From contig JACWAM010000058.1 of NCBI GenBank assembly GCA_014874265.1, positions 1 through 34,230 of the forward strand: a stretch of 34,230 bases of DNA, written 5' to 3'. A program made the position numbers and the translations under genes. The DNA comes from Thermoleophilia bacterium. Its GTDB lineage: Bacteria > Actinomycetota > Thermoleophilia > BMS3ABIN01. The notes beneath the pieces were generated by a model. It searched no databases. It had not been told where the DNA came from and worked only from the letters and a program-made list of their open reading frames with translations. Below are positions 20,782 through 34,230 of this stretch, in pieces; the first letter of the stretch is position 1; each line of letters starts with the position of its first letter.

Positions 20782-20804
20782 CAAATTCCAGGTTGTCAAA
20801 TTTG

Positions 20805-20836
20805 AAAAGCCCGCCTGTACAGGCGGGCTTTTTTTT
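20805..20836 (+). terminator. Rho-independent terminator of rpsA
   Basis: AAAAGCCCGCCT-GTAC-AGGCGGGCTTTT is a perfect palindrome (20805-20832) continuing into a run of eight T. It starts 23 bases after the rpsA stop. This is the strongest terminator in the window. Confidence 0.95.
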
Positions 20837-21107: not shown

Positions 21108-21662
21108 ATGGAAACTTTAGACAAGACCAGCTCCCAGCAGGAAGAGCATTTTTCCAATACATCTTTTTTGTCGACGCCGGAACGGGCCTCTTCGTTTATA
21201 GTCCTGACCGTTGGCGGCGAGTTTTTCGCGGTCGAGATAGGGCGCGTACGGGAGATCATCAGGGTGCCGGACATTACCTGGCTGCCCGGAGCTCCGGCAA
21301 GCATCAAGGGGATTGTTAACCTGCGCGGAGTTGTCGTGGCCGTAGTTGATCTGGCTGTCCTCTTTTCCCACTCTCAACTGGAAATCGAACCAAAGAGCAG
21401 AATCGTGATCGTGGAGTCGGCCGGCGCTTCCGTAGGACTGCTGGTCGAAGAGGTAATTGGCGTAGAAGAGATTCCCGCCTCCTCGCAAGAGGCGGCGATG
21501 CGCACGCTGGATGAATCCCAGCGTTCATTCATCTCGGCGCAGTCTGATTTAAGAGGGAAGATGACCGGGATTCTCGATATTGACGGGCTGGTTGAGAAAG
21601 CACGGCCCGCAGAAAGCCGTTCCGCCGGTGTCATCCAGGTAAATCGCCAGATGGGGGTCTGA
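21108..21662 (+). CDS. cheW: CheW-type coupling protein
   Basis: A 184-residue CheW-domain protein linking receptors to the kinase CheA. After about 25 polar residues comes the domain: [25 protein letters not shown], the conserved [26 protein letters not shown] and a [15 protein letters not shown] block. The ATG at 21108 has only a weak AGGG ahead of it. An upstream in-frame ATG at 20988 would start within the intron remnant and add 40 unrelated residues, so it is rejected. It is the only separate CheW in the operon; the receptor gene follows. Confidence 0.9.
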
Positions 21663-21730
21663 AAATGGCAGTTGAAAGTGGCATTCCGCCAGTACATGCA
21701 GGAAGTTTCAGCAGATCGGGAGCAGGCAGG

Positions 21731-23332
21731 ATGAAGTTTTTCCGGTTCTTCATGGGCAGTATCGAGGCCAAGATCCTCGGGTTGATCACGATCCTGATGA
21801 TCATCGGCCTGACGATCTTTGCCATTATCAATATCAGCCAGGAAGAAAACAATATGGTGGCGCAGCAGGAAGAGAGCAATCACGTCGCCGCCCAGCTGGT
21901 TGCCAACGGCATCAAAGCCAGCATGCTGGAGGGGAAGCCCGGTTTCACCGTCAAGGCGCTTCAGGACATGAAGGGAATTGGCGACCTGAGCAATATCATG
22001 ATTGTCAATACATCCGGCGGTGAGGTGTTCAGCGGCAACGGCCATGTTTCCGGGCTGACCGCCAACGAGCTGTCGCAGGCCTTGTCAACAGGGCGGCCGG
22101 TAACATTTTATGATGGCGCCGGCTCCGGCCGGCAGCTGACTGAAATCCATCCCTTGCCAAATGAGGCGGCTTGTCAGGCCTGTCACGGGAATACAAACAA
22201 TATGCGAGGCGCCGTGATCGTTTCGACCTCGATGAATCACATCGACAACAACGTCACCTCCGCCAAGGAGCGGACGATCATATTTCTGCTGGGGACGCTG
22301 GCCTTTGTTCTGGTATCCCTGATGGTGGCGCTGCGGATGGCCGTGACCAGGCCTCTGAAAAGTGTTGTAATGGCCATTAAGCGAATTGCCGCCGGCGACC
22401 TCACCCGCAGGGTTGAGTTGAAATCCAGCGATGAGCTGGGCGCGCTGGCCGGCAGCTTCAATGAGATGACCGATGGTCTTGGCCACCTGAGCGCGAAGAT
22501 CCGGGAAATGGGCGATCATACGTCCGAGGCCTCGGCAGAAATTCTGTCGGCCATTGAGCAGCAGGTAAGCGCTTCCGCTGAGCAATCCGCTGCAGTTACC
22601 GAGACTTCGGCGACCATTGAGGAACTGGCCGGCACCGCGAAGCAGATTGCTGAGACTGCCGAGTCGGTGGCGCGGGTGGCCGAGGAGACCGTTTCACATG
22701 CCGGTGAAGGTCAGAGCGCTGTCACGGCGACTATCGAGGGCATGCAAACGATTAACGAAAAGGTCAACAAGGTGGCGGAAAAGACGTTATCGCTGGGTGA
22801 GAAGTCTCAAAGAATCGGCACCATACTTGAGATCATAAATAATATCGCCGATCAAACAAATCTGCTGGCGCTGAATGCGGCCGTCGAGGCGGCTCGCGCC
22901 GGTGAGCAAGGCCGCGGCTTCGCCGTGGTCGCCAGCGAGATCAGGCGCCTGGCGGAAGAGAGCGTCGGCGCCACCGACAAGATCAAATCTCTGATAAATG
23001 AGATTCAGGCCGAGACAAACAGCACTATCATGGCGACGGAAGAAAGCGCCAAAGAGGTTCAGCAGGGCGTGGAGCTTGCCACCAATGCTGGCAAATCGCT
23101 GGAAAGCATCCTGGCCGTCGTTTCCGATAACACCGTGGCCGCGAAGGAAATTTCGATGGCGACGCAGCAGCAGAAGAGCGCCAGCGAGCAAGTCGTCGTG
23201 GCGATGACCAACATCTCTGAGGCCAGCCGCCAGCAGGCGATCAGCGCCAAGCAAACCCAGGAAGCCACTGAACAGCTGACCAGGTACGCGGCCGAGCTCA
23301 AAGAGGCTATTGCTGAGTTTCGGCTTGAGTAA
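21731..23332 (+). CDS. Methyl-accepting chemotaxis protein with periplasmic c-type haem motif
   Basis: A 533-residue receptor. A membrane helix (about 12-32) is followed by a periplasmic sensor of about 150 residues carrying CQACH at 148-152 (bases 22172-22186), a CxxCH covalent haem-c site just after LPNEA. A second helix (about 182-204) leads to HAMP (about 205-260) and a cytoplasmic coiled-coil signalling domain with the conserved tip [20 protein letters not shown]. Periplasmic haem-c receptors are known in Geobacter. The haem suggests sensing of redox state, O2, NO or CO. The ATG at 21731 has GGGAG eight bases upstream and gives a natural receptor start; an ATG at 21665, three bases after cheW, would add 22 residues. 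Cytochrome-c maturation genes are not in the window. Confidence 0.9.
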
Positions 23333-23458
23333 CGTTGGCCGCTCTGCGGCGCCGGCGTTATCCCGGCCATGGCGGACAAACGATTTTCGGGCCTGCCGGT
23401 GCTGCCGCTTGCGCAAACCTGCTGCGCCACCGTCACTGTGAAGAAAGGAGCGGTCTAA

Positions 23459-25966
23459 ATGATGAGCAGCTGGGCGAACGATCATGAATTCCTGCAGACT
23501 TTCAGGGCCGAGGCTCTGGAGCGCCTGCAGACGTTAAGCAGCGGCCTGATGTCGCTGGAAAATTCACCCGCTGACGATGAGCTGCTCAAGAAGCTCTTCC
23601 GGGAAGCGCATACGCTGAAAGGCTCCGCTGGGATGATGGGCCTGGACGCCATTCGCGAGCTGGCACACCGGGTCGAGGATATCATGGAAACGGTGCAAAC
23701 AGGTCAAATGCGGATGGAATCCGGGGTTGCGGATCTGCTCCTGGAGACGCTGGACCGTATTGAGCAGCTGCTGCCGGGCGAAGAGCCAGGAGAGCCGGCT
23801 CCAGTGGCGGACGTGACAGGCTTGCTGGAGCGCCTGCGCGAAGTGGGCTCCGGCGCCGCCGAGCCGGCGCCGTCCCTTCCGGTTACACCCAACGGGCAGC
23901 CGGATCAAACGCTCGCCCCGGTAGCCACAGCCGGGACGGAGAATCCGGAGGTGGAAGTTCCGGAGGCAAAAACACCGGAGCCGGAGGCTCCTGAGTTAAA
24001 AGTCGCGACAAACCTTTTGGATACCGGCGGAGAGAGCAATCATCCGGTGTCAGGCCCGCCTTCGGAAGCTCGGGGAGAAGAATCTGAGCCTCATCGCAAA
24101 GAGCCGCTTCTTAAAGCTGTCAGGCAGCAGCCGGAGGCAGCAAAACCGGCAGCGCTGGCCAGGCAGGAGAAAGCACCGGCGGCACTGGCCGGCAAAGCTG
24201 CGGGCGCGACGGCGCCACGGAGCGAATCCACCATCAGGGTCAATATCGAGCGTCTTGACAAACTTCTTAACCTAATGGGTGAGATTTTAGTCAATCAGTC
24301 TGACGCTGAAGACCGGATCAAGGAAATGGCTTCGATCCATAAGAGCACGGATGAGATCCAACATTCGTTTGCGGCTCTGGCTCAGCAAATTCGCAAGATT
24401 AAGTCCGGGGCTGACGAAACGGATCTGGGGGACATTCAGCAACGGGTAAACCGGATGGAGGATGCCTTGTCGGTTACCGTTGACCGGTTGGGAGCGGCGG
24501 CGACTCGCCTGGAAGACAACACGGCTGGCCGGAAGATCGCCCTGGATGATCTCCAGGATCAGGCGATGCACGTGCGCATGCTGCCGCTGGGATCGATTTT
24601 TTCCCTTTACCCGCGCGTTGTCCGCGATGCCGCCGGCGCCTGCGGCAAGAAGGTTAAGCTCGAGATCTCCGGGGAGGAGACCGAGATGGACAAGCGCCTC
24701 CTCGAGCAAATCGCCGATCCGCTGATGCACATCATGCGCAACGCCGTTGACCATGGCATCGAGTTGCCGTTGCAGCGGACGGAGCAGGGCAAGCCGGAGC
24801 AGGGCGTCATCCAGCTCAGCGCCGCCCAGCGGGGCGACAGAGTGGAGATTGAGGTGGCAGATGACGGCGCCGGCATCATTCCGGAGAAGATCAAGGCCGT
24901 TGCCGAGCGCAAGGGTCTCCTTGGCTCCGACGAGCAACTGTCCAACGAAGAAGCGATCGAGCTTATATTCCGTCCCGGTTTCTCCACCGCTGAAGCAGTC
25001 ACCACGATTTCCGGGCGCGGCGTGGGCCTGGATGTCGTGAAAAACAATATCGAACATCTGGAAGGATCGGTGCTGGTGGAGTCGACGCCGGGCCAGGGAA
25101 CGAGATTTCTCGTATCGCTGCCGGTCACCCTGGCGGTGATCAATGGCATGCTGGTAGAGTCCGGCGACGCAAAATTTGTTATTCCCATGACCGCCGTTCA
25201 GGAGCTGGTGGCGGTGGATAAGGAGGAGCTGCAATCGCTCGGCAGCCATCCCGGGTTCATCCTGCGGGGAAGCGCCGTCCCGCTTGTCAATCTTCTCCAA
25301 TTCCTCGGCGGCTTTCCGCCCGGCGATCGCGAGGGCAGGGCGCAGGTAGTCGTGGTGCGCGCCGAGCGGTACCGGCTGGGACTTGAGGTAGGAAGGCTGG
25401 TGGGGGAGCAGGAGCTGGTGATCAAGTCTTTGGGCGGTTTTCTGCCGCGGATGCCTTACGTGGCGGGCGTGACCGTCATGGGCGACGGCCAGGCCGTGCT
25501 GGTGCTTAACATCAATCAACTGGTGCGGGATATCAAGAACGGTGGAAAGGAATGGCGCCCGGCCGCAGGTGGGGAGGCCGCGGAAGGAGCTTCGGGACCA
25601 CGACGGTCGATTCTGGTGGTGGAAGATTCGCTCGTCGTGCGGGAGCTGCAGCGAAATATCCTGCAGGCGGCGGGCTATGAAGTTGAAACCGCCGTTGACG
25701 GCAATGATGCCATGACGCATCTGATGGAACGCCAGGTTGATTGCGTCGTGACCGACCTGGAGATGCCGGGCATGGACGGACTCAATCTCATCTCGGCGAT
25801 CCGGCGCACCGATGACCTGAAAGATATCCCGGTAGTCATGGTGACTTCCAGGAATAGCGAAGAGGACAAGCGCCGCGGTGTGGAGGCGGGAGCAAACGCC
25901 TACGTGACCAAAGGCACCTTTGACCAGCAGAACCTGCTTGACACAATCAAACGGCTGGTAGCCTAG
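23459..25966 (+). CDS. cheA: Hybrid chemotaxis histidine kinase CheA with C-terminal receiver
   Basis: An 835-residue CheA-REC fusion. The Hpt (P1) domain has the phosphorylated H51 in REAHTLKGSAG. A long Pro/Ala/Glu-rich linker (about 110-260) replaces a recognisable P2 domain. The dimerisation domain is long, with extra helices (about 262-385). The ATPase has HIMRNAVDHGIE, the DDGAGI box and GRGVGLDVVKN (to about 560). A CheW-like P5 domain (about 570-700) precedes a receiver (about 716-835) with D766 in VTDLEMPGMDG and the late VTKG lysine. WspE and FrzE have the same layout. The receiver may act as a phosphate sink or output. The ribosome-binding site AAAGGAG lies eight bases before ATG. 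Confidence 0.95.
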   Translation: MMSSWANDHEFLQTFRAEALERLQTLSSGLMSLENSPADDELLKKLFREAHTLKGSAGMMGLDAIRELAHRVEDIMETVQTGQMRMESGVADLLLETLDRIEQLLPGEEPGEPAPVADVTGLLERLREVGSGAAEPAPSLPVTPNGQPDQTLAPVATAGTENPEVEVPEAKTPEPEAPELKVATNLLDTGGESNHPVSGPPSEARGEESEPHRKEPLLKAVRQQPEAAKPAALARQEKAPAALAGKAAGATAPRSESTIRVNIERLDKLLNLMGEILVNQSDAEDRIKEMASIHKSTDEIQHSFAALAQQIRKIKSGADETDLGDIQQRVNRMEDALSVTVDRLGAAATRLEDNTAGRKIALDDLQDQAMHVRMLPLGSIFSLYPRVVRDAAGACGKKVKLEISGEETEMDKRLLEQIADPLMHIMRNAVDHGIELPLQRTEQGKPEQGVIQLSAAQRGDRVEIEVADDGAGIIPEKIKAVAERKGLLGSDEQLSNEEAIELIFRPGFSTAEAVTTISGRGVGLDVVKNNIEHLEGSVLVESTPGQGTRFLVSLPVTLAVINGMLVESGDAKFVIPMTAVQELVAVDKEELQSLGSHPGFILRGSAVPLVNLLQFLGGFPPGDREGRAQVVVVRAERYRLGLEVGRLVGEQELVIKSLGGFLPRMPYVAGVTVMGDGQAVLVLNINQLVRDIKNGGKEWRPAAGGEAAEGASGPRRSILVVEDSLVVRELQRNILQAAGYEVETAVDGNDAMTHLMERQVDCVVTDLEMPGMDGLNLISAIRRTDDLKDIPVVMVTSRNSEEDKRRGVEAGANAYVTKGTFDQQNLLDTIKRLVA

Positions 25967-25984
25967 GCAAGGCGGAGGGGATTG

Positions 25985-27037
25985 ATGGAAGCGGCGTCAG
26001 CGAAAAACCAGACGGTAAGGGTTCTCATAGCCGACGATTCGCCAACGGTGCGGCTGATGTTGCGCCGGATACTGGACGCCGACCCGGGCATCACCGTCAT
26101 CGGGCAGGCGAGCAACGGCAGGGACGCGGTGGAGAAAGTCGCCAGTCTCAAACCGGACCTGGTTACCATGGATGTGGAAATGCCAGTGATGGATGGCATC
26201 AAGGCGATCGAGCAGATCATGGCTTTTACGCCCGTGCCGGTTCTGGTCGTCAGTTCGGTAGCGCAGGAGCATACAGCTAACGCCGCCAAGGCGATGGGAG
26301 CCGGCGCCGTCGATGTCTTTTGCAAGCCGGAAAGCGCGTCGCTGAACGAATGTGAGGCCAAGGCAAACGCACTAAGGAACAAGGTCAAACTGCTTTCCCG
26401 GGTGCGCGTCATCACTCATCCGCGTGGGCGCTTCGCCAGGGCGGCGTCGGCGCCGCATGCCGTCCACCCCGGGGCAACCACGGAAGTTGTCGCCATCGCT
26501 TCCTCGACCGGGGGACCCCAGGCGCTCAATGAAATTCTCAGAAGCCTGCCCGCCAACTTCCATGCCGCCATCCTTATCGTGCAGCACATTGCTGAGGGGT
26601 TCACGGACGGACTGGTCGAGTGGCTGGACGGCAACTGCCGGATGCCGGTAAAGAAGGGCAGGCAGGGCGACCATATAGTTCCCGGGCAGGTGATCATTGC
26701 CCCTGATTCCATCCACATGATCGTGTCACCTGAACACCGGATCGCCCTGGTAAACCGGGAGATCGACAGTCCGCACAAACCTTCGGCGGATGTGCTTCTG
26801 GAATCGGTGGCCCAGGAATACGGCGTCCGTTCCCTGGGAGTGATTCTGACAGGCATGGGCCGCGATGGAGCCAGGGGGATCCAGGCAATCCATGACTCCG
26901 GCGGGCACACTTTGGCTCAGAACGAGGAGACGTCGGTCATTTTCAGCATGGCCAAGGAAGCAATCAAATTAAATGCCGTTGAAAATGTCATCCCTCTGGA
27001 GCAGATCGGACCGGTAATCGGCAGTTACGTTTTTTGA
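25985..27037 (+). CDS. cheB: Chemotaxis protein-glutamate methylesterase CheB
   Basis: A 350-residue response-regulator methylesterase that removes methyl groups (and deamidates glutamines) on the receptor. The receiver (about 10-125) has acidic pair DD (17-18), phospho-acceptor D63 (TMDVEMP) and K114. The esterase domain has the catalytic triad S174 (ASSTGGP), H201 (IVQHI) and D294 (GMGRDGA). The ATG at 25985 follows a good GGAGGGG; a TTG three bases earlier is unnecessary. Phosphorylation by CheA should activate it, giving adaptation. The next gene starts one base after its stop. Confidence 0.96.
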   Translation: MEAASAKNQTVRVLIADDSPTVRLMLRRILDADPGITVIGQASNGRDAVEKVASLKPDLVTMDVEMPVMDGIKAIEQIMAFTPVPVLVVSSVAQEHTANAAKAMGAGAVDVFCKPESASLNECEAKANALRNKVKLLSRVRVITHPRGRFARAASAPHAVHPGATTEVVAIASSTGGPQALNEILRSLPANFHAAILIVQHIAEGFTDGLVEWLDGNCRMPVKKGRQGDHIVPGQVIIAPDSIHMIVSPEHRIALVNREIDSPHKPSADVLLESVAQEYGVRSLGVILTGMGRDGARGIQAIHDSGGHTLAQNEETSVIFSMAKEAIKLNAVENVIPLEQIGPVIGSYVF

Positions 27038-27038
27038 T

Positions 27039-28562
27039 ATGCCAGCAGTAATCAGACAGGAACAAAAACCGGCAAAGCATCCATACCGCATCCTGGTGGC
27101 GGAGGACAGCCCCACCCAGCAGCGGATCATCACAACGGTGTTGAGCCGAGAGAGCTTTGAGGTAGTCATCGCCGGCGACGGGATCGAAGCGGTCACGCAG
27201 GCGTTTCAGGAAAATCCGGATCTGGTCGTGCTCGATATCGAGATGCCAAGGATGGATGGTTACCAGGTGTGCCGGCTGCTGAAAGATGACTACCGCACGT
27301 CGCGGACGCCGGTGATCATGCTGACCAGCAAATCTCAGGAGACGGACAAGTTCTGGGGTCTGCAGACCGGCGCCGACCGCTACGTTACCAAGGATTTTCA
27401 GCTTACCGGGCTGGCGGGCGCCGTCCGGGAGCTGCTTGGCGGCGGGGACAAAGACGACGATGCGCCGGCCCGCTGCATTTTGCCGAAGCAGCCGGCCGCG
27501 GACCAGCAGGATGTTAACGTGCTATCGCGCGTAAACGAGTTGCTTGACCGCAAGCTTTATGAAGCAACCGTGATCAACGAGATCAGCAAGCTGAACACGC
27601 TCAGCGAAAATTGCGCCCTCACCGTCAGCTCGGTGCTGACCGTGATCGCCAAAGTGACAGACTGCCATGTCTGTTCTATCATGCTGGTAGAAGAGTCGGA
27701 GCTGATCATGCACGTGCACGGCCCTGTCGGCAGTTCCTATTTCGAGGAGGCCCGCCGCCAGGCGATTGGGGCGGCGTCACCGTATATGAAGCCAGGAACG
27801 GCCAGTACCCAGATCGAGGTCATCGTCGATTCGGACCCGTCCTTTATCCGGGAAGACCGCCCCGAGTTTGACGAGATCAAATCAATGCTGGTCATTCCCT
27901 TGCAGGCGCGCGGCCAGAAGATCGCCATCCTCATCCTGAGCAGCCCCCGCCCGGACGCGTTTGCAGAAGCGACCCAGCGGTTGCTGGAGATTATCGAGTA
28001 TCCGGTGAGTCTGGTGGTTGACAACGCTCGCCTGCACGAAGGCACCCGCCGGCTGGCCATCACCGATGGCCTCACCAGATTGTTTAACCACCGTCATTTT
28101 TACGAGCTGCTGGAGCAGGAATTCCAGCGCGCCGTGCGATATGAGAGCCAGCTGTCGCTGATCATGGCCGACATCGACTCATTCAAGAAAATCAACGACG
28201 CGCACGGCCACCAAGTGGGAGATGAAATCCTCACGCAGCTGGCGGGAGTGATTTCCCGTGAGGTGCGCGACATGGACATTGTTGCCCGTTATGGCGGCGA
28301 AGAGATCGCCGTGCTGCTGCCACAGACCGGGCCGAAGCAGGCTTGTGAAGTTGCCAAGCGTATTCGCAGCGCCGTGGAGAATCATAATTTCCAGCTGCCC
28401 GACGGGGGCACTGTGACGCTCAGCCTGGGAGTGGCCGGTTTTCCCGAGTGCGGGGCCAGCAATTACGCGGGGCTTGTGCAAGTGGCCGACGCCGCCCTGT
28501 ACGAGGCGAAGAAGGCCGGTAAAAACCGGGTGGTTGCGGGGGACAAATATGAGCCGGAATAA
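27039..28562 (+). CDS. Response regulator with REC, GAF-like and GGDEF domains (diguanylate cyclase)
   Basis: A 507-residue protein. The receiver (about 16-135) has phospho-acceptor D66 (VLDIEMPRMDG) and the VTKD lysine. A middle domain (about 155-335) looks like GAF (VLTVIAKVTDCHVCSIMLV, then MLVIPLQARGQKIAILIL). The C-terminal GGDEF domain (about 340-500) has an intact GGEEI active site (419-423) and an RDMD inhibitory I-site (410-413) exactly five residues before it. It should make c-di-GMP when phosphorylated and be product-inhibited. It is the likely output of this chemosensory operon, equivalent to WspR but with an added GAF domain. It overlaps cheR by 14 bases. Confidence 0.94.
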   Translation: MPAVIRQEQKPAKHPYRILVAEDSPTQQRIITTVLSRESFEVVIAGDGIEAVTQAFQENPDLVVLDIEMPRMDGYQVCRLLKDDYRTSRTPVIMLTSKSQETDKFWGLQTGADRYVTKDFQLTGLAGAVRELLGGGDKDDDAPARCILPKQPAADQQDVNVLSRVNELLDRKLYEATVINEISKLNTLSENCALTVSSVLTVIAKVTDCHVCSIMLVEESELIMHVHGPVGSSYFEEARRQAIGAASPYMKPGTASTQIEVIVDSDPSFIREDRPEFDEIKSMLVIPLQARGQKIAILILSSPRPDAFAEATQRLLEIIEYPVSLVVDNARLHEGTRRLAITDGLTRLFNHRHFYELLEQEFQRAVRYESQLSLIMADIDSFKKINDAHGHQVGDEILTQLAGVISREVRDMDIVARYGGEEIAVLLPQTGPKQACEVAKRIRSAVENHNFQLPDGGTVTLSLGVAGFPECGASNYAGLVQVADAALYEAKKAGKNRVVAGDKYEPE

Positions 28563-29991
28563 GCGGCATATGCTTTCAGAGACGGATTTTGAGAGGTTTC
28601 GCCAGCTGGTCAAAGGCGCCAGCGGCATCTTTTTTGACCGTGACAAGATCGAGGTTCTGGGGGCCGGCCTCGCCGAGCGGGCCAATGAGGTCGGCGCCGG
28701 GGATCTCGATGAGTATTACGGTTTGGTTTCTTCTCGCGAGAGCAGGGAAGAGCTAAACAGGCTGCTGGCGCACCTGTCAGTGCAGGAGACACAGTTTTTC
28801 CGGAACTCGCCGCAGTTTGACGCGCTCCGCCAGTACATCATTCCGGAAATTGCCCGGCGAAAAACAGGCGGGGAGAGGGTCATGCGGTTCTGGTGCGCCG
28901 GCTGCTCCACGGGACAGGAGCCGTATTCGGTGGCGATGTCAGTGCTTGACGTGTTGCCGGAGCCGGAGTCGTGGAACATTCAGATCCTGGGCACCGATTT
29001 GAACGAGGATGCGCTGGCCGAAGCGTCCCGGGGATGGTACCCGGAGCGGAAGTTCGCCGGCGTGGACCGGCTGCATCTCGACCGATATTTTCATGCCGCC
29101 GGCGGCGGTTACACGATTGACGAGAGCGTGAGAAATCTGGTCCGGTTTGAGCGGCTCAATCTCGTTGACGATCCTCTCCCGGTAAGCTCCTTTGGCGTCT
29201 GCGACGCTGTTTTTTGCCGCAATGTGATCATTTATTTCACCCACGAAACGGCGAAGATTGTCATAGAGCATTTCTATGACATTATGAGCCCCGGCGCGTA
29301 TCTGTTTCTCGGGCATTCGGAAACACTGTGGCGGATGTCGTCAAAGTATGCCCTGGTGGAGATTGGTGACGCCTTCATTTACCGGAAGCCGCTGCCACTG
29401 TCCGTCGGCGGGCGTCGTTTCTTGCCCGATCGTCGTCTCCGGTCCACAGGCCCTTCGTCTGGCAGCTCGGACGAGCGCCGCAGTTCGCGGGCGGATCGCC
29501 GCTCCCGGAGCGGCGAACGGAGCGACCCCAGGGTCAAAACCGGCGTAAACAAGCAGAAACCGTTAACAGATGATGCGCTTTCTCCGCGGGAAGCAGCCGG
29601 CAGTGCCAGAATTCAGCTTGACCGGGGGAAATATGAACTGGCCATCCGCTGCCTGGAGCGCGGTCTTGCCGCCAACGGAGCTGACCCCGAGCTTTATTTT
29701 GTTTTGGGCCTGGTCCATGAGAAAATGAATGAACCGGAAGCGGCGGCGGAAGATTTTCGCCGGGCGCTTTATTTTGATCCCGATCTGGGCATTGCCCGCT
29801 TCCACCTGGCCAGCGTTTTCGAGCAGAACGGCAAGATCAAGAGCGCCGTACGGGAATACCGCAACGCGAAGCGCAGCTTCAAGGAAAATCTTCCCGGTCT
29901 CTTGGAAGCGGAGCTGGAAGCATTCGATGCCGATTCGCTCATGAACCTGTGCGAATGGAAGATCGAGAACCTGACTGGGCTGGAAAGCTAA
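28549..29991 (+). CDS. cheR: CheR-type protein methyltransferase with C-terminal TPR region
   Basis: A 480-residue fusion. CheR N-terminal helices (about 8-70) precede the S-adenosylmethionine-dependent methyltransferase (about 75-285) with QETQFFRN, FWCAGCSTGQEPYS and FCRNVIIYF. A linker rich in Arg and Ser (about 295-340) follows, then tetratricopeptide-like repeats (about 360-450: AIRCLERGLAANGADPELYF, AAEDFRRALYFDPDLGIA). It should methylate the receptor's glutamates, opposing CheB. CheR-TPR is the WspC layout. The ATG at 28549 has GGGGG six bases upstream and overlaps the end of the cyclase gene; an earlier in-frame start would bury deeper in that gene and is rejected. Confidence 0.94.
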   Translation: MSRNKRHMLSETDFERFRQLVKGASGIFFDRDKIEVLGAGLAERANEVGAGDLDEYYGLVSSRESREELNRLLAHLSVQETQFFRNSPQFDALRQYIIPEIARRKTGGERVMRFWCAGCSTGQEPYSVAMSVLDVLPEPESWNIQILGTDLNEDALAEASRGWYPERKFAGVDRLHLDRYFHAAGGGYTIDESVRNLVRFERLNLVDDPLPVSSFGVCDAVFCRNVIIYFTHETAKIVIEHFYDIMSPGAYLFLGHSETLWRMSSKYALVEIGDAFIYRKPLPLSVGGRRFLPDRRLRSTGPSSGSSDERRSSRADRRSRSGERSDPRVKTGVNKQKPLTDDALSPREAAGSARIQLDRGKYELAIRCLERGLAANGADPELYFVLGLVHEKMNEPEAAAEDFRRALYFDPDLGIARFHLASVFEQNGKIKSAVREYRNAKRSFKENLPGLLEAELEAFDADSLMNLCEWKIENLTGLES

Positions 29992-33332: not shown

Positions 33333-34230
33333 GTGTCAGCCTTGAAAACCAAATTAGCGCCAGGAGCTCAAAAAACAGGGCTGGCATCAATCACCTCCCT
33401 GGATTTTAATCCCCAGTTTCGCCGGGCGCTTGATATGATGGAAAATTCCAGCGGCGACATCCTCATCACGGGAAGGGCCGGAACCGGCAAATCTACGCTG
33501 CTGGATCATTTTCGGTCGGTCACCGGCAAGCAGATCGCCGTGCTGGCGCCAACGGGCGTTGCCGCCGTGAACGTATCCGGGCAGACCATCCACTCCTTCT
33601 TCCGTTTCCGTCCGGATGTGACAGCCAAGAAGATCAAGGCGGTTAAAGACCCGGTATATAAAGAACTGGACGCCATCGTCATCGACGAGATCTCGATGGT
33701 CCGGGCCGACCTGCTCGACCTGGTTGATCTGTTCCTGAGAAAAAACGGTCCGCAGAAGAAAGCCCCATTTGGCGGCGTCCAGATGATCTTCATCGGCGAC
33801 CTCTACCAGCTGCCGCCTGTCCTGACCCGGAACGACAAGGAAGTCCTCGCCAAACGCTACGAAAGCGAATATTTTTTCGACTCGGACGTATTCCGCGAAA
33901 CCCGGTTCGAGCTTGTCGAGCTGGAGAAAGTCTACCGGCAAACGGATGATTTCTTCGTCGGGCTGCTCAATGGCGTCCGCAACAAAAGCATCTCGGACGA
34001 GCAGATTGATATGATCAACGCGCGTCTGGCAACCCATGAAGGGGACTGGCCGGAAAACGCGATACACATCACGACCACCAACGCCATGGCGCGAGAGCGC
34101 AACGAGCAGCAGCTCGCCAGTCTGAAAGGGAAGACCTACATATTCGAAGCAGAAATGGATGGCGATTTCGACGAAAGGAGCGCGCCGGCGGAGTTGAGGC
34201 TGAGGCTGAAAAAAAGCGCTCATATAATGA
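33333..34230 (+). CDS. PIF1-like superfamily 1 helicase, N-terminal part (runs off window)
   Basis: The frame is open from a GTG at 33333 to the last base, giving 299 residues. Walker A is GRAGTGKS (47-54); PTGVAAVNVSGQTIHSFF is motif Ia; IVIDEISMV (D118, E119) is motif II; GDLYQLPPV is motif III; and a VYRQ motif follows. This is the PIF1/RRM3-type helicase core known in many bacteria. These enzymes unwind DNA 5' to 3' and resolve structures such as G-quadruplexes. The C-terminal half, with the remaining motifs, lies outside the window. Start choice is uncertain: a TTG at 33342 is a near alternative and neither has a strong Shine-Dalgarno. No terminator separates it clearly from uvrB. Confidence 0.85.
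   Translation, partial: MSALKTKLAPGAQKTGLASITSLDFNPQFRRALDMMENSSGDILITGRAGTGKSTLLDHFRSVTGKQIAVLAPTGVAAVNVSGQTIHSFFRFRPDVTAKKIKAVKDPVYKELDAIVIDEISMVRADLLDLVDLFLRKNGPQKKAPFGGVQMIFIGDLYQLPPVLTRNDKEVLAKRYESEYFFDSDVFRETRFELVELEKVYRQTDDFFVGLLNGVRNKSISDEQIDMINARLATHEGDWPENAIHITTTNAMARERNEQQLASLKGKTYIFEAEMDGDFDERSAPAELRLRLKKSAHIM

Follow-up and report, generated by a model that had tools for sequence, protein, structure and literature searches.

In the Wsp pathway of Pseudomonas and Burkholderia (WspA-F and WspR), an MCP, CheW, CheR-TPR, CheA-REC, CheB and a REC-GGDEF protein are encoded in one cluster whose output is a cyclase, and a survey found syntenic Wsp confined to beta- and gammaproteobacteria (PMC8552884). 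Wsp has two CheW genes flanking that for CheR, a 4HB receptor, and a cyclase that lacks a GAF domain. The alternative cellular function (ACF) pathways of the Wuichet and Zhulin scheme, which include members from Actinobacteria and Chloroflexi, have a hybrid CheA, a CheR-TPR, a receptor of about 40H, a multidomain response regulator and no flagellum (PMC3447774, PMC10746217). A third group of described proteins, the Geobacter chemoreceptors GSU0935 and GSU0582, joins a HAMP-MCP body to a c-type haem sensor with a CxxCH motif and an axial Met; Met60 is the sixth haem ligand of GSU0935, and the midpoint potentials of the two sensors differ (PMC8396549). A 2026 preprint named this domain sCache_heme, reported NO-sensor properties for its signalling-domain fusions, and described it as rare or absent in Actinomycetota (PMC12889525).

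The operon and its conservation

The window, by which we mean the whole stretch of DNA analysed (34,230 nucleotides), is a 34.2-kb contig from a 2.02-Mb draft genome that is 97% complete. Six genes, in the order cheW–mcp–cheA(REC)–cheB–REC-GAF-GGDEF–cheR(TPR), occupy positions 21108–29991 of its forward strand, as judged from Pfam matches and open reading frames (Table 1). An earlier note, made from the sequence alone, had listed these genes in this order and at these positions; all of them are present, every catalytic residue checked is intact, and the operon is real and functional-looking. The nearest named relatives of its CheA are from Actinomycetes, Gaiellales and Thermoleophilia MAGs and from bacterium BMS3Abin01, in agreement with the note's "probable actinobacterium". 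From these assignments and the class-level grouping, we infer that the host, which is uncultured, is an actinobacterium of the class Thermoleophilia, in the clade of bacterium BMS3Abin01.

Table 1. Features of the operon and of the second haem operon; 12/12 refers to the family receptors scored for CxxCH and the axial Met.
Feature	Position	Strand	Remarks
Intrinsic-terminator-like hairpin	20804..20833	+	Strong; 13 pairs and T tract; S1-protein gene upstream, operon downstream
cheW	21108..21662	+	ATG start; PF01584, 1.3e-31; sole stand-alone CheW of genome
Chemoreceptor	21665..23332	+	TM, periplasmic haem sensor, TM, HAMP, MCP-signal; sole MCP of genome
c-type haem sensor domain	21899..22237	+	PF21563 (Mcp40H-20_sensor), 7.6e-8; GSU0935/GSU0582-like; Foldseek 3b42/3b47
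Met87 codon	21923..21925	+	Aligned with Met60, haem axial ligand of GSU0935; kept 12/12
Haem motif C170-Q-A-C173-H174	22172..22186	+	CxxCH kept in 12/12 relatives
cheA (hybrid kinase)	23459..25966	+	Hpt (H51), dimerisation, HATPase, CheW, C-terminal REC (D766)
CheA C-terminal receiver domain	25610..25948	+
cheB	25982..27037	+	REC and methylesterase; motifs SSTGG/QHI/TGMG conserved
REC-GAF-GGDEF diguanylate cyclase	27039..28562	+	Only output protein of operon
Cyclase D66 codon	27234..27236	+	Predicted phospho-acceptor
Cyclase GAF	27627..27992	+	PF01590, 8e-9
Cyclase I-site RDMD (residues 410-413) and active-site GGEEI	28266..28307	+
cheR with C-terminal TPR	28549..29991	+	Nominal ORF start 28474; likely ATG at 28549 overlaps cyclase stop
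CheR TPR repeats	29605..29784	+
Second haem operon	L192:2858-7807 (G000:C29)		Histidine kinase, haem-sensor hybrid kinase, REC, REC-HD-GYP

In CheA, both H51 and D766 are intact and invariant among relatives, and no match to a P2 domain was found with Pfam; the CheR motifs ETQFFR and CRNV are likewise intact and conserved. As the note had it, the cyclase is the operon's sole output protein, and its GGEEI and I-site are intact. All 14 orthologues compared share its REC residues E22, D23, D66, T96 and K118 and, with the GG(D/E)EF motif and the REC acceptor both intact, the protein is predicted to be an active enzyme. ARAGORN called a tRNA-Ala within cheW (21455-21530), which is most likely a false positive. 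Near the end of the window, an open frame past uvrB (33387-34230, forward strand) runs off the contig and is probably uvrA.

The gene order cheW–mcp–cheA–cheB–cyclase–cheR is constant in all 13 family loci compared, barring genes lost at contig ends, and because it recurs in every relative with a spanning contig, the gene set is not a matter of chance. Three congeneric relatives have the operon between PolA–S1 and CoaE–SLT–UvrB, as here, and it is therefore not a binning artefact; among the family loci compared, the flanks vary outside the genus. An MCP is encoded in 13 of the 19 family genomes, exactly one in each (the copy in G036 is split across two contigs), and a genome search of G006, which is rated 100% complete, found neither a CheA nor an MCP. 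The window's genome as a whole encodes one stand-alone CheW, one MCP, one intact CheB and 16 GGDEF proteins. A CheB-like match on contig C69 (L004:1246-1922, G000:C69) was considered as a second system and set aside: it has an internal stop or frameshift and looks like a relic. That fragment adjoins a GAF-PP2C-like gene.

Relation to Wsp, flagellar and pilus systems

The earlier note had called the operon Wsp-like, and for the parts list and the cyclase output the term is apt. It does not extend to the gene order (W-M-A-B-DGC-R), the number of CheW proteins (one, also in 13 relatives), the cyclase with its added GAF domain, all three of which the note had itself pointed out, nor to the receptor, whose sensor is of the PF21563 haem type instead of 4HB. 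The Wsp reference operon on Azoarcus pAZKH (L147) has the same parts in another order, with two CheWs and a 4HB receptor (4HB_MCP_1). Two trees, one of CheA P4–P5 (59 rows) and one of CheA, CheB and CheR together (35 rows, 704 columns), each placed the window's family in one clade (100/100) and the Wsp references in a separate one (100/100), in keeping with the note's suggestion of a distinct lineage if the host were an actinobacterium. Forced sisterhood of the family and Wsp was neither favoured nor rejected by AU tests (p = 0.25 for CheA and 0.12 for CheA+CheB+CheR), and the nearest tree rows, which are weakly supported, were other ACF-like clusters, several of them beside REC-GGDEF or REC-GGDEF-REC genes. 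A true Wsp pathway, transferred from proteobacteria, rearranged and sensing surface contact, would explain the shared kinds of protein and is compatible with the unrejected sisterhood, but we regard it as highly improbable given the differences in order, CheW number, receptor sensor and cyclase, the separate clades, and the published confinement of Wsp to beta- and gammaproteobacteria (PMC8552884). A flagellar chemotaxis pathway with its partners elsewhere in the genome is even harder to credit. General homology to che genes and the fact that Thermoleophilia are often flagellated (PMC10746217) speak for it, but FliG (FliG_C) was not found anywhere in the 97% complete genome; the CheR-TPR, CheA-REC and 40H-like receptor are ACF traits; and forced grouping with the REC-less CheA proteins of the class, presumed to be of flagellar type F1, was rejected (AU p = 0.003). 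The earlier note had named a CheA within a flagellar class as evidence that would count against its own reading, and this last result goes the other way.

The note was also right that the window holds no stand-alone CheY and no flagellar gene. The survey of the rest of the genome that it proposed, for cheY, flagellar or pilus genes, gave a mixed answer: there is no FliG, yet several stand-alone REC proteins are encoded elsewhere, so that a CheY-like partner acting in trans is possible, and PilB, PilT and PilC are present. These genes, together with the lack of a flagellum, would suit a system for type IV pilus surface-motility taxis, with the cyclase in a secondary role and the pilus under the direct control of CheA's own REC or of a stand-alone REC from another part of the genome. 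We consider this unlikely, if less so than the Wsp and flagellar explanations, since no relative examined has a CheY gene within or beside the operon, and since the cyclase is found in every relative whose contig reaches so far and is better conserved than CheA (60-74% against 50-65%, the nearest relative excepted).

From the trees, the gene order, the CheW number, the receptor and the published surveys, we therefore file the operon as an ACF-type pathway and not as a member of the Wsp family; it is Wsp-like in its parts and probably in its logic. It has the multidomain response regulator, the CheR-TPR and the 40H receptor of ACF systems, and no flagellar partner (PMC3447774, PMC10746217). That it occurs in Actinobacteria is not in itself a novelty, because ACF systems have already been reported in six actinobacterial species (PMC10746217). 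What differs from other ACF pathways is the haem sensor as sole input, the fixed order specific to the clade, and the REC-GAF-GGDEF output. The acidobacterial che clusters L072 and L073 are similar in that the genes for a REC-x-GGDEF protein and for CheR come after those for CheA and CheB, but their CheA is distant, their cyclase has no Pfam GAF, and their receptors have a C-terminal dCache-like match in place of the haem sensor.

Two further kinds of cluster were seen in the course of this comparison. A Novosphingobium plasmid, from an alphaproteobacterium, carries genes in Wsp order (L151:3841-12279; MCP, CheW, CheR-TPR, CheW, CheA-REC, CheB, REC-GGDEF), in contrast to the survey that calls Wsp exclusive to beta- and gammaproteobacteria. 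In other Thermoleophilia (L166, L168, L171 and L172), MCP, CheW, CheA-REC, CheB and CheR lie beside a REC-GGDEF-REC gene, possibly a second lineage in that class with c-di-GMP as output.

Haem sensors in the receptor and in a second operon

The haem sensor of the receptor is a feature that the earlier note missed. By sequence, the sensor matched the solved haem sensors of GSU0935 (3B42; E 2.5e-6) and GSU0582 (3B47), and the top Foldseek match of its predicted model (mean pLDDT 76.8) was again 3b42 (E 1.9e-7). Global superposition was poor, which we attribute to domain swapping in the crystal dimers. Taken together, the CxxCH motif and the fold fit a haem chemoreceptor of the GSU0935 type (sCache_heme), so that haem binding is predicted, and the Met and CxxCH matches are compatible with redox, NO or CO as the signal. 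The signalling domain comprises about 40 heptads, and a gene for cytochrome c assembly is present in the genome. Unlike GSU0935 and GSU0582, the protein is the only receptor of its genome and is encoded beside a cyclase. Outside the window's family, the sensor was matched in only four genomes of a sample of 396 actinobacterial genomes. In the literature searched, which lay mostly beyond subscription journals, we found no described precedent for a che system combining a haem receptor with a cyclase.

A sensor search turned up this type of haem sensor in another protein of the sampled family genomes as well. In the window's genome this is a hybrid kinase (sensor–HAMP–HisKA–HATPase–REC) on another contig; its neighbours are a stand-alone REC and a protein of REC–HD-GYP architecture, the latter with HDIGK and HHQERFDGDGYP. 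This operon is the second thing that the earlier note missed. The haem kinase adjoins a REC–HD-GYP gene in all six operon-bearing genomes examined (L192, L195–L199), across genera of the family, although in L198 a Tyr replaces one His of the HHxE motif; the pair was not found in the stretch seen (L193) of G006, the genome without CheA and MCP. Thus, the examined genomes with a haem-receptor cyclase operon also encode, next to a haem kinase, a protein of the type that breaks down c-di-GMP. A study of Lysobacter reports a Wsp cyclase directly linked to an RpfG-type REC-HD-GYP protein (PMC9758175), which makes a pairing of cyclase and HD-GYP plausible. Several genomes of the genus have a third CxxCH haem-sensor protein of about 957 aa (L194; G024:C19:20000-28000), and the sensor search did not find it in the window's genome.

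A proposed route from haem state to c-di-GMP

We think it likely that a redox or NO signal read by haem sets c-di-GMP through the operon's cyclase and the paired HD-GYP protein, with PilB as a possible target. The covalent periplasmic haem of the receptor would read redox state or NO and, via CheW, control the hybrid kinase CheA-REC, which would phosphorylate D66 of the cyclase and so set c-di-GMP synthesis, in whichever direction. Adaptation of the receptor would fall to CheR-TPR and phosphorylated CheB, and the REC of CheA itself may be a phosphate sink or relay. The haem hybrid kinase beside the REC-HD-GYP phosphodiesterase (G000:C29) would in turn control c-di-GMP breakdown, so that both haem arms would act on one pool in opposite senses and haem state would tune it from both sides. 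More tentatively, we suggest that a single kind of haem sensor has two uses in the same cells, in a receptor whose entire array has this one input and leads to a cyclase, and in a hybrid kinase leading to an HD-GYP phosphodiesterase, so that c-di-GMP is set both ways; this stronger claim we hold to be possible and on balance doubtful. Since the Geobacter pair differs in midpoint potential, the two sensors could mark out a redox window. The 16 GGDEF proteins and several stand-alone RECs of the genome leave room for cross-talk.

PilB is a plausible candidate for the c-di-GMP target, judging by its N-terminus, where two 24-residue copies of the MshEN c-di-GMP motif (as defined in PMC5013675; relaxed form) stand five residues apart; PilT, PilC and a pilin-like gene are encoded nearby. 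An attempt to tie PilB to the operon by co-occurrence failed: 18 of the 19 family genomes encode MshEN proteins, whether or not they carry the operon, and PilB would therefore be a possible target and not a dedicated one. Elsewhere in the genome, two adjacent genes (L177:2371-5215, G000:C13) encode membrane proteins in which MshEN, a c-di-GMP-binding type of domain, is fused to DUF202; genes for a histidine kinase and for a response regulator of NtrC type lie close by, and a similar MshEN pair is found in other genomes of the genus.

Two things go beyond the earlier note: the haem sensor as input, and the HD-GYP operon that is paired with the che genes. The system brings together two literatures that rarely meet, on alternative-function chemosensory arrays and on covalent-haem sensors. 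It also adds a subsurface actinobacterial lineage to the known range of haem sensors, which have been called rare or absent in that phylum. With one receptor, one CheW, one CheA and an adjacent cyclase, it is a minimal case: the signal, the adaptation and the second-messenger output could all be reconstituted and measured. That a single cofactor controls c-di-GMP in two opposing directions is a testable proposal. If it is correct, these bacteria would read redox state or NO as a level of c-di-GMP, with methylation-based adaptation only on the arm of synthesis.
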